In this document: in pieces, positions 54,458-61,004 of the stretch
Layout: every line of letters begins with the position of its first letter
How positions within the stretch are numbered: the stretch's first letter is position 1
Source of the DNA: an uncultured SAR86 cluster bacterium
Lineage (GTDB): Bacteria > Pseudomonadota > Gammaproteobacteria > Magnimaribacterales > Magnimaribacteraceae
Direction of reading: 5' to 3'
Assembly (NCBI GenBank): GCA_937773605.1
Contig: CALJVP010000002.1
Coordinates: forward strand, 1-64,000
DNA: 64,000 nt
Notes under the pieces: generated by a model
The model's input: only the letters and a program-made list of their open reading frames with translations
Database searches by the model: none
Told to the model about the DNA's origin: nothing
Position numbers and translations under genes: made by a program

Positions 54458-55384
54458 TTATGCACTCACTGCTTTTAATAATACTTTTTTATACGAAGTC
54501 TCTAAACACATCTTATCTTCATAGCCGTTTTCTATCATCATGGAATGTGCTTTAGGAAGATTGTACCAAGGGCATCGAGTAAATAGGTGGTGCTCTAAAT
54601 GATAATTTACATTATGAGGAACCATTAAAAATCTTGTCAAAACTGTTGATTTAGTCGTCCTAGTATTGTCAAAGTCATTATTTCCAGGGGTAACGGCGTG
54701 TTCAGATATGTTTCTAATTCTTATTATTAAACTGTAATAAGTAAATGAAGGAAGCCACCATAACAATAAAAACAATGACCAGTGCATCGTTGTAGAGATA
54801 AGAACAAAAATAATTAAATTAGAAATTAAAAAGCCATGAAGCTTATTAGAAGTTTTTGATATTTTATTAAATACATTGTCCCCTTTTGTTCTAAAAATAG
54901 AGCTTAAAGATCCCCAATAACGCTTTACTCCTGTGATACCTGTCAAATCTCTAAAAACTTTTCTGATAAAACTTCTTTTAGTAATAGGAAACGGGGAGCT
55001 CAAAACTAGATCGGGGTCATCGTCAGTCTCTGTATGCCTATGATGCTTAAGATGATATGGCCTATAAACTCTATTATCTTGGAAAATAGGATAAGCACAA
55101 AACCACTGACCAGCCCAATCATTCACTTTATTATTTGCAAATAGAAGATTGTGAGCGGCATCATGTGCTAAAACAGCTAAAGCAAATTGTCTGCTTCCTA
55201 TGATCACTAAAGCCACTAAAAAAGTTATAACATTTGGGTAAAAGAAAAAGAGGGCCATAGCTGCAGACATTTGCAGCCAGTTAGAGCTTATGGACAAGAC
55301 ATTCCTCCAATCCTGCTTCTCTTTTATTTCCTCGTATTGCTCTTTAGAAATAACCTCTAAAGGCTTAACGCTACTTGTTGCCAT
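54458..55384 (-). CDS. Fatty acid desaturase family protein
   Basis: Histidine boxes HDAAHN, HLKHHRHTETDDDPD, NVNYHLEHHLF. Confidence 0.9.
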   Translation of the reverse strand: MATSSVKPLEVISKEQYEEIKEKQDWRNVLSISSNWLQMSAAMALFFFYPNVITFLVALVIIGSRQFALAVLAHDAAHNLLFANNKVNDWAGQWFCAYPIFQDNRVYRPYHLKHHRHTETDDDPDLVLSSPFPITKRSFIRKVFRDLTGITGVKRYWGSLSSIFRTKGDNVFNKISKTSNKLHGFLISNLIIFVLISTTMHWSLFLLLWWLPSFTYYSLIIRIRNISEHAVTPGNNDFDNTRTTKSTVLTRFLMVPHNVNYHLEHHLFTRCPWYNLPKAHSMMIENGYEDKMCLETSYKKVLLKAVSA

Positions 55385-55420: not shown

Positions 55421-56776
55421 TTAATCAACAAAAGGGATACTTATACTGTCTTTAATTCTTGCCTGTTTAAAGACTGGAAGAGGTTCTTCTGATCTAATCT
55501 GCTCCAACCATATAACTCCATCATAAGGTTTACTATTTCCTCTGGTACCAACAAAGTCTGTATCGCCATCCTCATCTATATCAAGAGGTATCCATTTATC
55601 ATACATGCCTCTTTTTCTTCTTAGGACATTGTTTTTTTTCCAGCCTAATTTAGTGTTTTCAAACCAAGCCACACTACCGAGAGCCTGATTTTCTGAAGAT
55701 TCATCATCTTTATCTCTACTGCCACGACTGTAAGATCCTACAAAAGCATCAAAATCACCGTCAGAATCAATATCAGCCAAAGAAACACTAACTAATTGAT
55801 CAGGTTTTATACTTCCTATGACATCCATATCCCATGACATACTGGGATCTTTGGGTTGATAAAGGACTATTAGGTAATATGGCCACACTGTACTTACAAT
55901 ATCTAATCGACCATCTTGATTAAGGTCTTGATAATCCATATTAAACCCCGTTAACCATGATCCAGAAGGAAGATTCTGAGATAAATTTATTTCACGTTCT
56001 TTAAAATTTAATTCACCTAAGTTTTCCATCCAAAGAATTCTTGCTTCTCCTCGTGAACCAATTACAACATCCATATCTCCATCTTTATCTAAATCAACAG
56101 GCTGAGAATTAATGGGTATTTTTACTTTAGTAAGAACCACCTCTTCCCACTCGTTTCCATTTATAGGATTCTGAGGTAATTTATAAAAAGAAACATTATT
56201 TAAAGGTGAGTCGGATCCAGAAGCATTTTCTCCTCCCTTGTTGGCAGTAACTACTTCAACCCTTCCGTCACCATCCAGATCCGAAAAGAAAACTCTAATA
56301 AAAGAGCCTCTATTCAATGTAGATTTAGGAACCGTCCTTTCCCATCTCACTGAACGGTGATTTTTACCAGGATTTTGAAAATAAATTAAATGCGCTAACT
56401 CACAAGCCACTACTATATCTAACCAACCATCTCCATCAGCATCAGCTACGTCAACATCTTCAGCAGAAGGCGCTTCTGAACCTGAAGCTAAAGTTGTGGA
56501 AGTCCACTCTAAAGGATCCTGACTTCCCCAAGCTATCCTTACATAACCTTCAGGAACCCCGTATTCAGTATCCAATTCATGAACAGAAACAATGTCCAGA
56601 TGCCCATCCTTATCTAAGTCTGCCATGACCAAACCATCGCTTCCGGCTAAATCAGGAGGTCCTACAGAAGAGTCATCTATAATATGCTCTTTCCAAGATA
56701 TATTAGTTTGAGCACTGGAATAACTTATGAATAATCCAGTCAGGGTAAATAATATTATTTTTGAATATATTGCCAT
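55421..56776 (-). CDS. Exported FG-GAP/VCBS repeat protein
   Basis: Signal peptide; repeats such as DLDKDGHLDIVSV, DADGDGWLDIVVA, DLDGDGRVEVVTA, DLDKDGDMDVVIG, DLNQDGRLDIVST, DIDSDGDFDAFVG, DIDEDGDTDFVGT. Confidence 0.9.
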   Translation of the reverse strand: MAIYSKIILFTLTGLFISYSSAQTNISWKEHIIDDSSVGPPDLAGSDGLVMADLDKDGHLDIVSVHELDTEYGVPEGYVRIAWGSQDPLEWTSTTLASGSEAPSAEDVDVADADGDGWLDIVVACELAHLIYFQNPGKNHRSVRWERTVPKSTLNRGSFIRVFFSDLDGDGRVEVVTANKGGENASGSDSPLNNVSFYKLPQNPINGNEWEEVVLTKVKIPINSQPVDLDKDGDMDVVIGSRGEARILWMENLGELNFKEREINLSQNLPSGSWLTGFNMDYQDLNQDGRLDIVSTVWPYYLIVLYQPKDPSMSWDMDVIGSIKPDQLVSVSLADIDSDGDFDAFVGSYSRGSRDKDDESSENQALGSVAWFENTKLGWKKNNVLRRKRGMYDKWIPLDIDEDGDTDFVGTRGNSKPYDGVIWLEQIRSEEPLPVFKQARIKDSISIPFVD

Positions 56777-57768
56777 AAGTTATTTGTAAAATTTGGATCA
56801 TTAGGGAAAGAACCCAGCCTAACTACTATCATCTCTTCACTTGGAACGATAGCTAGAACCCTGCCTCCCAAGCCCAAAGCGAGTATAGTTTCTTCAGGAA
56901 CTTCTGAGAATAAATTACCTGATGAAATATTTTTTTCCCACGTCATATGGGTTTTAGAATTATTGAGCCACCATAGATATCCATAGGCCTCATTCATATT
57001 TTGTGATTTTGAAAAAGTGTCATCAAAAAAATCTATATCCCAGATTAAATGATTGGTTCCAACTTCTCCGCCATTTAGAATAAATTCACCAAACTTTAAT
57101 AAGTCTTTTGCTGTAGTGATCAAACCATATTTCGCAGAATCTTTAGAAAATCCACCAAAACCTTTTTTCCTTTCCTTCCAAAAGGTCTCTTTCATTTCTA
57201 ATTCATCAAAAAGCCACTGAGATGAAAGTTCATTAATTTGAAGGCCAGAGGTTTTTTCTAGAACATAAATTAACTGGCTGTATGCCCTGCTGTTGTAGAG
57301 CCATTTTGATCCGGGTTGAGCATCGTATTTAAAATCAATATCAAGACCAGAAGTCATTGTGAGTAAATTCCTTATCGTAATCAGATTCTCTTTTTCTTGT
57401 GTTAGCAAAGTCCATTTTCCAATATAAGATGTAACCGATTTATTAATATCTAATAATCCTTTTTGTTGAGCTATTCCTATTAAGATCGAAACAAAACTTT
57501 TTTGAATTGAAGCTACATCCTCTTGACTTCTGTTTTCAATAAACCCGTGTCTGAGTAAATTAAAAAACATTAAACTTTGTGGCTTCAATTTCTTTTGAAC
57601 TTCAAATTCTTCTTCAAGTAAAATTTCTCCTTTCTCTGATACCAAGAAGCTCGATGTATTATTTTGAATAAGATATTCAAACAACCTTGATTCTCCTGCA
57701 TTATTGGAAAATACAGAAGAAGAACTAATAAATAGGAATGTTAATAAAAAGATTTTTCTAATGCTCAT
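56755..57768 (-). CDS. Exported serine hydrolase, beta-lactamase-like
   Basis: Signal peptide; SIQKSFVSILIGIAQQKGLLDINKSVTSYI (SxxK), LLTMTSGLD, YNSRAYSQLIYVLEKTSGL. Confidence 0.85.
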   Translation of the reverse strand: MSIRKIFLLTFLFISSSSVFSNNAGESRLFEYLIQNNTSSFLVSEKGEILLEEEFEVQKKLKPQSLMFFNLLRHGFIENRSQEDVASIQKSFVSILIGIAQQKGLLDINKSVTSYIGKWTLLTQEKENLITIRNLLTMTSGLDIDFKYDAQPGSKWLYNSRAYSQLIYVLEKTSGLQINELSSQWLFDELEMKETFWKERKKGFGGFSKDSAKYGLITTAKDLLKFGEFILNGGEVGTNHLIWDIDFFDDTFSKSQNMNEAYGYLWWLNNSKTHMTWEKNISSGNLFSEVPEETILALGLGGRVLAIVPSEEMIVVRLGSFPNDPNFTNNLWQYIQK

Positions 57769-57800: not shown

Positions 57801-57830
57801 AAAAAAAACGGCCACTAAGTGACCGTTTTT
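57801..57830 (-). terminator. Intrinsic terminator downstream of the three-paralog operon
   Basis: acggccac-taa-gtgaccgt stem (one G-U on the minus-strand RNA) with A/T tracts. Confidence 0.72.
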
Positions 57831-57843
57831 CATATTAAATACA

Positions 57844-58605
57844 TTAATTGATAATCGCTTTAATATTATTCACAGAATAAACCCTTGGTGGCTGACAATC
57901 AGCTATAGTTTCAGGATAAGAACCATCTACTAAGCTCTGCAACCTAGCATCTCTATAGTTTCCATATTCCGTCATTGAGTTGAAACCCATATTTACATAA
58001 AAATCATTCGTTTCTTCAAGGGAAGACCCTCCAGCACCCCACCATCTCCAAACTCCACCGGTATGACCTAAGCCATCTAAGAATTCATTCCAAGTTTCAT
58101 CATTCTCTCTTATATCGGAAAGGCTTTTCCCAGATTTAAAAGAACAGCTGTGAAATGCCCAATAATTGTCATCACCTTCTTCAAAATCAGCTTTACTTTC
58201 TCTTACCTCGAAGATATCCCATTGGCTCCAAGAAGCACAGTTCACAATATTCTGCCATTTAGTAAATACTTTAGAAGCGTTTGCTGAAAACCAATCAGTC
58301 ACTTCTCCCATTGCATTGTTATCTGGAGTGAATCCAACCCAAAATAAGTCATACCCTCCATCTGTTGAGGCATATAACTGAGGGGTAACTATATTTCCCT
58401 CGTAAGGTGCCGGATAAGATTGAGCCATTTTATACCAATCTTTTCTTACCATATTAAGGGCGTCGTCTAAATCTTTACCTTCGTTGAAATTGCATTGCAA
58501 TACTTCCCCAGTATAAGTTTTGTATGCTTCTTCATCATGACCATCTGCAAAACTAAGATTTGAAATGGCAACAATGATTGCTATATAAATTATTTTAAGT
58601 TTCAT
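57844..58605 (-). CDS. Exported protein of unknown function, paralog A
   Basis: Signal peptide MKLKIIYIAIIVAISNLSFADG; CNFNEGKDLDD..., CSFKSGKSLSD..., ...DCQPPRVYSVNNIKAI; related to the next two genes. Confidence 0.75.
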   Translation of the reverse strand: MKLKIIYIAIIVAISNLSFADGHDEEAYKTYTGEVLQCNFNEGKDLDDALNMVRKDWYKMAQSYPAPYEGNIVTPQLYASTDGGYDLFWVGFTPDNNAMGEVTDWFSANASKVFTKWQNIVNCASWSQWDIFEVRESKADFEEGDDNYWAFHSCSFKSGKSLSDIRENDETWNEFLDGLGHTGGVWRWWGAGGSSLEETNDFYVNMGFNSMTEYGNYRDARLQSLVDGSYPETIADCQPPRVYSVNNIKAIIN

Positions 58606-58625
58606 TTTATTCTCCTTCATAAAAA

Positions 58626-59387
58626 TTATTGTGCTTGAATTGCTCTTACTGCATCAGCTATGAAAACTTCTCTGTTTTTGCAAGTCATTAAATCTCCATA
58701 AATTTCTTGAGAAACCTGATTTCCTCCACCATTAACAGCCTGGTCAGCTCCTTTGCCCCAAGCCACCATGCTTTCTGCTGATTGAACCCATAACAAGTCA
58801 GCATCAAATCTAGAAGGCACTCCTGAACCAGGGTACCACCTACTTATTCCTCCAGTAGAGTCCCCTGTATCCATAAAGGCATTGAGTTTCTTGTCTGCAG
58901 CAAGTAATTTTTCTGGAGTCGCTCCCTCACTTAAAGTACACCATTGCATTGTTACAACTGCATCTCCTAGCTCAGCGGAAGGTCTTACAATCTCTAATCC
59001 CCAATTAGAATGGTCATAGCAGGTAGTGATTTTATCGAATTCTGCTTGTAACTTTTGCCCTTTAGAAGAGGCCATAGTTTCTGCTCCCTTCATAAGATCT
59101 TCCCATGTTGGGGCTACACCTATCCAATAGGCATCTGCCTTCTGATCTTCACTATAAAAATAAGGAGTGAAAACCCAAGCGTTATAAGCTACTCCTGTTT
59201 CATCTACATAATCATTCCATTTTTCAGTGGCTTTCATAAAATCACCCAAGTCTTTTCCTGAATTGTAGTTACATGCAAAGCCTTCTAAAGGTAAATATGT
59301 AGGCGCTTCTATGTGGCCATCAGCAATAGCAGTAAAAGAAAGCCAAGTTGTAATAGAAATTACTATTATTTTATTTATTTTTTTCAT
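58626..59387 (-). CDS. Exported protein of unknown function, paralog B
   Basis: Signal peptide MKKINKIIVISITTWLSFTAIADGH; CNYNSGKDLGDFMKATEKWNDYVD, CTLSEGATPEKLLAADKKLNAFMD, MTCKNREVFIADAVRAIQ. Confidence 0.75.
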   Translation of the reverse strand: MKKINKIIVISITTWLSFTAIADGHIEAPTYLPLEGFACNYNSGKDLGDFMKATEKWNDYVDETGVAYNAWVFTPYFYSEDQKADAYWIGVAPTWEDLMKGAETMASSKGQKLQAEFDKITTCYDHSNWGLEIVRPSAELGDAVVTMQWCTLSEGATPEKLLAADKKLNAFMDTGDSTGGISRWYPGSGVPSRFDADLLWVQSAESMVAWGKGADQAVNGGGNQVSQEIYGDLMTCKNREVFIADAVRAIQAQ

Positions 59388-59407
59388 TATATTTCCTGAA
59401 TTAAAAA

Positions 59408-60169
59408 CTAATTTTGTGTTTTTCCACCAACGTACTCTATGGCATAAACTCTTGGAGTATCACATTCCCTGAGTTCATCAAGGTCGGTAGGCCCAGGATT
59501 ACCAGAGAGAAAGTTATCTGGAGTTACTCCCCACTCTTTTAAAGTTGAATGAGCGTAAACTTCGAGGTAGTCGTATGCTTGTTCAATTCCAGAACCAGCT
59601 CCCATAAACCAATAATAAATACCGCTATCAACATTAATACTATCCAAATACTGATTTTGTTTTGCGTTAGCAGCAGCAAAATCTGCTTGAGAAGCACCCT
59701 CTTTATTAGTACAACCACTGATAGTTAAATATCCATCAGGTGTCTGGTTCTTTGGCTGTCTAACAGTAAAGGAGTATACGGCGGCATGATTAGGACAAGG
59801 ATTAGCTGCGTCAAATTCAGCAGCTAATTTTGTTCCTTTAGCAGCCCATTCATCTTGAGCTTGACCAAGTGAAGTGAAGTCTTCTGTAACACCCAGCCAA
59901 AAAAGATCATAAGGAAAATCTGATTTCCTTTGATAATAAGGGGTCATTAGATATCCAGCATAAGGAACAGTATAATTTTTATCTGCCCATTTATCCCATT
60001 TTGCAGCAACTTTTCTGGTGTCATTTAAATCTTTGTTATCAGAAAAATTACATTGGTAAATTTCAAGAGCAGCATCTTGAGGGGCTTCCATGTGGTTGTC
60101 AGCAAAAACGGTTAAAGAAAAAAGAAAGGAAAAGATGGCAACTGAAGTTGCTTTAAAAATTTGATTCAT
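59408..60169 (-). CDS. Exported protein of unknown function, paralog C
   Basis: Start trimmed to MNQIFKATSVAIFSFLFSLTVFADNH; CNFSDNKDLNDTRKVAAKWDKWAD, CTNKEGASQADFAAANAKQNQYLD, ECDTPRVYAIEYV. Confidence 0.75.
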   Translation of the reverse strand: MNQIFKATSVAIFSFLFSLTVFADNHMEAPQDAALEIYQCNFSDNKDLNDTRKVAAKWDKWADKNYTVPYAGYLMTPYYQRKSDFPYDLFWLGVTEDFTSLGQAQDEWAAKGTKLAAEFDAANPCPNHAAVYSFTVRQPKNQTPDGYLTISGCTNKEGASQADFAAANAKQNQYLDSINVDSGIYYWFMGAGSGIEQAYDYLEVYAHSTLKEWGVTPDNFLSGNPGPTDLDELRECDTPRVYAIEYVGGKTQN

Positions 60170-60329
60170 AGGTCTCTCCATGGTTAATATTAAATCATCC
60201 TGGAAAAACAAAGAAAATTTCAGCAACGTATCCCCATAGTGACTCCATTCTATAGGTTCAACCAGACTTCTAGTCTCTCAAATAAAGACTATAGTGCAAG
60301 AACTTTATTAAGGAAAAGCAGCTAAGATT

Positions 60330-61004
60330 CTAGTTCTTTTTTGTTGGTAAAAGAATACTTCTGAGCCAGCCTAAGATTGAATTATCTGCCAAATCGATTC
60401 TATCGAGATGGTCATACAAGTCATCTAATGCTTGAGGATCTTTGAATAAATCGATTCTAGTAAAAGCTTCTTCGTTAGGATCAAGCTCTTTAATTATTTT
60501 TGCAGGATTTCCGCCCACTATGACATTCTTCGGCACGTCTTTAACAACAACAGCTCCTGCTGCGACAATGCTATTCTCTCCAATGGTCACACCTTTGCCT
60601 ACAACCGCCCTATCTCCTATCCATACGTTATTCTTTAGCTCTATTGGTTTGGTTGTTCCAACTGGTGCTGCGCGATTATAAATACCATGCCAATCAGCAT
60701 CAGAAACATAGGCACTGTTTGCAAACATACAGCCATCACCGATGGTAATCTTTGTAGCTGCTGCAATCCTAACTCCAGGAGTTAATAAACAGTAATCTCC
60801 TATTTCAATAACTCCATCAAATTCTCCCAAGTTCCAAGTTGTTAAATGGATATTGTTATCAGAAGAAGCTACAAAAGTCGGACATTTTCCTACATTAACT
60901 CTGCTGCCAAAGACATCTATGTATCTGGCCCCCATAACCACGGGGCCCTCTCCTAAGCTCTCAAATTGAGGAGCTACGTAAAGATCAACGTAAAGTCTAA
61001 CCAA
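60330..61004 (-). CDS. Left-handed beta-helix acyltransferase
   Basis: Hexapeptide repeats: IEIGDYCLLTPGVRIAAATKITIGDGCMFANSAYVSDADWHG...NNVWIGDRAVVGKGVTIGENSIVAAGAVVVKDVPKNVIVGGNPAKII. Confidence 0.88.
   Translation of the reverse strand: MVRLYVDLYVAPQFESLGEGPVVMGARYIDVFGSRVNVGKCPTFVASSDNNIHLTTWNLGEFDGVIEIGDYCLLTPGVRIAAATKITIGDGCMFANSAYVSDADWHGIYNRAAPVGTTKPIELKNNVWIGDRAVVGKGVTIGENSIVAAGAVVVKDVPKNVIVGGNPAKIIKELDPNEEAFTRIDLFKDPQALDDLYDHLDRIDLADNSILGWLRSILLPTKKN

Follow-up and report, generated by a model that had tools for sequence, protein, structure and literature searches.

A tandem array of predicted exported two-module alpha+beta barrel proteins in a SAR86 cluster bacterium

Results and Discussion

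Three consecutive genes for predicted exported proteins

The 64-kb stretch of DNA analysed here (hereafter, the window; GC content 37.8%) is part of contig C2 of a draft genome of 1.30 Mb in 20 contigs. Its minus strand carries three consecutive genes, here called A, B and C, transcribed in the order C, B, A and separated by gaps of 20 nt:

60330..61004, minus strand: hexapeptide acetyltransferase (PF00132); fixed upstream border of a variable block
59408..60169, minus strand: gene C, first in the putative operon; 253 aa, predicted signal peptide ending VFA before DNH, two predicted ferredoxin-like modules, four Cys
58626..59387, minus strand: gene B; 253 aa, predicted signal peptide ending AIA before DGH, tandem beta-alpha-beta-beta-alpha-beta in the AlphaFold model, four Cys, C-module without His
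57844..58605, minus strand: gene A; 253 aa, predicted signal peptide ending SFA before DGH, elements in the same order in the second AlphaFold model, four Cys
57803..57831, minus strand: intrinsic terminator after gene A; 13-pair stem and T-run
56755..57768, minus strand: serine hydrolase with a signal peptide (Beta-lactamase family, PF00144); often, not always, adjoins the array
55421..56776, minus strand: FG-GAP repeat protein (PF13517); often, not always, adjoins the array
54458..55384, minus strand: fatty acid desaturase (PF00487); fixed limit of the variable block on the downstream side

An earlier reading of the window, made from the sequence alone, had placed three tandem minus-strand genes for secreted proteins of about 250 residues at this site, and they are indeed there, each product having 253 residues and a predicted signal peptide. 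The right end then given for the array, 60226, has to be corrected, as it rests on an upstream TTG; gene C is better begun at the ATG at 60169, which has GGAG upstream, and with this start all three proteins are of 253 residues. The terminator that the same reading had assigned to the array was recovered at 57803-57831 (-16.7 kcal/mol, z -6.1, with none of 200 shuffles as good), and the serine hydrolase gene starts beyond it. A promoter scan gave no more than was obtained with shuffled sequences. Genes C, B and A are probably co-transcribed as an operon.

The proteins are paralogs built from a duplicated module

The products of A, B and C are mutually 26-30% identical over about 230-250 residues, with BLAST E values of 1e-17 to 1e-35, and are true paralogs, in line with the sequence-only reading. 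That reading had also seen two copies of one module in each protein and had called for a comparison of the profiles of the two halves. Pairwise BLAST of half against half is weak, the best cross-half match (6e-6) being between the N-terminal half of B and the C-terminal half of A. Profiles of the N- and C-terminal halves built from 78 homologs, however, match over 107 columns with Prob 99.0 and E 3e-18, against Prob 1.0 in the reversed control. Moreover, the same genome encodes single-module paralogs of 129 and 125 aa, with signal peptides, at G000:C6:8382-8714 (L004, L056) and at G000:C1:93768-93911 (L005, L057), and a profile made from six single-module members aligns with each of the two half-profiles (Prob 99.4 and 98.6). 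Since the half-profiles match each other and the single-module paralogs match both, the unit of the family is, on the profile evidence, a module of about 105 aa, and each 253-aa protein is its fused duplicate. The single-module gene at G000:C1:93768 is followed by an alpha/beta hydrolase-like gene.

Scans against Pfam, NCBIfam, PADLOC and PHROG gave chance-level matches only; the sequence-only reading had likewise recognised no family. A literature search found no paper on this family.

Predicted fold and relation to 2PGC

AlphaFold was run on the three window proteins and the relative at locus L035, so that each alignment comprised four sequences; the first job yielded only one good model out of five. 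Models of moderate confidence were obtained for B (pTM 0.67) and A (pTM 0.63), with a mean pLDDT of 67-68, and in both the order of elements is beta-alpha-beta-beta-alpha-beta, twice, a repeated rather than a single fold. In Foldseek searches of the PDB, both models had 2PGC as their first or second match (E 6e-8 and 7e-9, with a TM of 0.75 by target length), ahead of putative chlorite dismutase, HemQ and monooxygenase barrels; the matches of both models were mostly tandem alpha+beta barrels and extended over the whole length. The proteins are thus predicted to be tandem ferredoxin-like chains of the dimeric alpha+beta barrel type, as had been guessed from the sequence.

The structure 2PGC was among five that were determined for novel families of the Global Ocean Sampling data (PMC2557142), and it has no assigned function. 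It derives from a marine metagenome (jcvi_pep_1096685590403, Joint Center for Structural Genomics), has about 206 aa and is likewise a two-module single-chain barrel of ocean origin; being itself without an assigned function, it lends none to the window family. It is 11-14% identical to the window proteins and has no sequence match to the window family itself: neither gene C nor the family profile, when used as a sequence query against the PDB, returned a match. In agreement with the structural search, 2PGC is the top PDB match by sequence for a sister subfamily with members in these arrays (E 0.013, over 146 residues), and this subfamily matches the window family in a profile comparison with Prob 94.8. 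The fusion of two ferredoxin-like modules in one chain is shared with known fused barrels; unlike these, the window proteins are predicted to be exported and to have their Cys paired within each module, occur in tandem arrays and have no Pfam match. By its predicted fold, the family is a new one within a known fold superfamily and not a new kind of system.

Cysteines and other conserved residues

There are exactly four Cys in each protein, a pair in each module (A, 38/123/154/237; B, 39/123/150/236; C, 40/125/153/236), and four Cys are found in 56 of the 78 homologs, which bears out their conservation as noted earlier. In the model of B, Cys39 ends beta1 and Cys123 begins beta4, and Cys150 and Cys236 are placed in the same way in the second module; beta1 and beta4 are neighbouring strands in the ferredoxin-like fold. 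Because the residues lie on neighbouring strands and the same four Cys occur in all three proteins, each module probably contains one disulfide, from the end of beta1 to the start of beta4. The sequence-only reading had both modules begin with Cys and a GK-L-D-like motif; Cys and the GK-L-D/W motifs were found in the N-modules, and for these the description stands. Likewise, its conserved Trp holds for two positions in the N-half, and less strongly, at one position, in the C-half. Gly, Pro, Asp and Trp residues are conserved in the family, possibly for structural reasons, and no conserved catalytic set that would point to one reaction was found in it.

Distribution, synteny and selection

With gene C as the query, homologs were found in 42 of the order's 61 genomes, a count that includes the own genome, and the family profile gave at least one match in each of 12 genomes that were re-tested. 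Among 274 genomes of the class there was, order members aside, one clear case (G226, L077), and a search of 399 genomes of the phylum returned no family member beyond the own genome. A single search of genome contigs added one relative, L035, in a MAG titled uncultured Gammaproteobacteria. The family is rare outside the order.

Genomes of the same family have the array between the hexapeptide acetyltransferase and fatty acid desaturase genes; MsrB, MurJ, RibF, IleS and LspA come further along, the last four being identified by sequence. It comprises one to five double-module members, often three to five in a row, and in some genomes includes sister subfamilies. A phylogeny of 67 proteins places A with the last members of other arrays, B with first or second members and C with proteins of G017 and G009, the gene C orthologs being 69-70% identical in the former and 56% in the latter; array positions are thus orthologous, and this across genera. 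Array members are under purifying selection: dN/dS is about 0.07 in one and 0.035 in the other of two close, unsaturated pairs (synonymous sites are near saturation in other pairs).

The array forms a variable block, whereas the backbone around it is syntenic. G001, a member of the same genus with a 92% identical acetyltransferase, lacks the entire block, and its acetyltransferase and desaturase genes lie 127 bp apart on one contig; the site is also empty in G003, and in G004 and G008 it is occupied by other genes. Loss of the block in these four genomes is the simpler reading. In G008, a 51-aa relic of a family member lies beside the acetyltransferase gene (L094:12655-12810), and acyl-CoA synthetase-like and other genes replace the array.

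The array had been put forward as an undescribed secreted system. A secreted multi-gene system was considered and rejected: the neighbours are ordinary conserved genes, and the serine hydrolase and FG-GAP genes alone go with some of the arrays, both being missing beside others. There is no sign of a multi-part system, and the predicted fold is that of a known superfamily with a solved relative.

Proposed function and its alternatives

We propose that the array encodes exported small-molecule-binding barrels. Each protein would be exported by Sec, lose its signal peptide and fold in the periplasm or outside the cell; its two diverged ferredoxin-like modules would pack into a single-chain version of the dimeric alpha+beta barrel, each stapled by a disulfide from the end of beta1 to the start of beta4. 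The three paralogs would be old, separately conserved members of the family, maintained together in an operon at a single site of the chromosome, and each would bind small organic molecules in the barrel or in the cleft of a module, perhaps with cofactor-free chemistry, and be tuned to a different ligand. Taken as a whole, we give this reading a probability of about one half. A binding role is proposed because most solved members of the superfamily are barrels that bind small molecules or transform them, the site being the barrel itself or the cleft of a module (PMC4835899, PMC7611857). The genes neighbouring the array indicate no pathway. A streamlined genome of 1.3 Mb spends several genes on this family and its array positions have long been kept, so that they must be of benefit. 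Neither Pfam nor NCBIfam names the family, and 2PGC, the solved structure closest to it, has been without a function since 2007. The conserved features of the family (two modules, four Cys and an Asp-X-His start) make simple biochemical tests possible.

The proteins could instead be structural or chaperone-like components of the envelope, with no small-molecule function. No catalytic residues can be named, and the conserved Gly, Pro, Asp and Trp could be structural; the fold, however, is common to many ligand-binding proteins, and diverged paralogs side by side fit ligand specialisation better. We consider such a role unlikely.

A second alternative starts from the predicted mature N-termini. 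An ATCUN site, formed by the free amine, two backbone amides and a His at position 3, binds Cu(II) or Ni(II), NH2-X-X-H being an established site for Cu and Ni (PMC12509749, PMC7701195). Cleavage after Ala would give mature starts of DGH, DGH and DNH in A, B and C, and the ADGH and ADNH ends of the signal peptides, listed in the sequence-only reading without interpretation, are present. The proteins might then be exported Cu/Ni-binding proteins, with the barrel as a scaffold or as a metal partner. Columns 1 to 3 of the mature part of the family alignment have D in 45, D in 41 and H in 38 of 61 filled rows, and the next columns are poorly conserved. His at +3 occurs in 37 of 83 family members with predicted signal peptides (34 with Asp at +1) as opposed to 7 of 79 other proteins with such a prediction (6 with Asp); for the Asp-X-His counts, in which the rows are related, Fisher p is about 5e-7. 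In the own genome, the coding pattern has 13 matches, and only those in the three array genes fall at the end of a signal peptide. The cleavage site, however, is predicted by a simple rule only, and several orthologs lack the His (SDDE in G031, SDDT in G027 and ADDD in G030). Moreover, Asp-Asp-His after Ala also begins the predicted mature form of secreted proteins of unrelated kinds, cupin-like and SnoaL-like, that occur in another family of the order, and may be an export-signal habit of the lineage. Metal binding by the array proteins is a real but minority reading, and we hold it to be unlikely. The fuller version, a repertoire of exported disulfide-stapled barrels in which Asp-X-His captures Cu or Ni and the barrel takes a different ligand in each paralog, appears more doubtful still; if true, it would make the proteins a new class of extracellular scavengers of metals or metal-ligand complexes.

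Two further alternatives fare worse. The tandem, secreted, copy-number-variable and patchily present genes recall an antagonism or defence array (toxin, immunity or decoy) diversified by selection; strong purifying selection, position-specific orthology across genera, the lack of any PADLOC or PHROG match and a site without partner genes or secretion apparatus make this improbable. Periplasmic heme or porphyrin proteins, such as chlorite dismutase, coproheme decarboxylase (HemQ), DyP or IsdG/OxdA, share the overall two-module fold of the array models and form the largest group among the Foldseek matches to both, but in these proteins a helix provides the axial His (PMC4835899, PMC7611857), in alpha2 or alpha4 by the IsdG/OxdA rule (PMC4835899). 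Since no such His is conserved here (leaving aside the mature N-terminus, the best His column reaches 17 of 78, and the C-module of B has no His), membership in these groups was rejected. Their TM-scores are also below that of 2PGC, and a heme role is very improbable.

Other secreted proteins

Another distant homolog of the family profile (E 1.3e-7; a 276-aa frame) lies in the own genome at G000:C1:60529-61014. Diverged secreted two-module subfamilies, with no Pfam match, occur in or beside arrays or elsewhere in the order (L016:2244-2969, L040:8751-9452, L046:10504-11253 and L060:5152-8922). Small secreted SnoaL-like or cupin-like proteins with an Asp-Asp-His start, which are unrelated to the barrels, are encoded next to or near members of the barrel family in another family of the order, at L067:10399-11264, L068:9831-10735 and L075:14494-15885.
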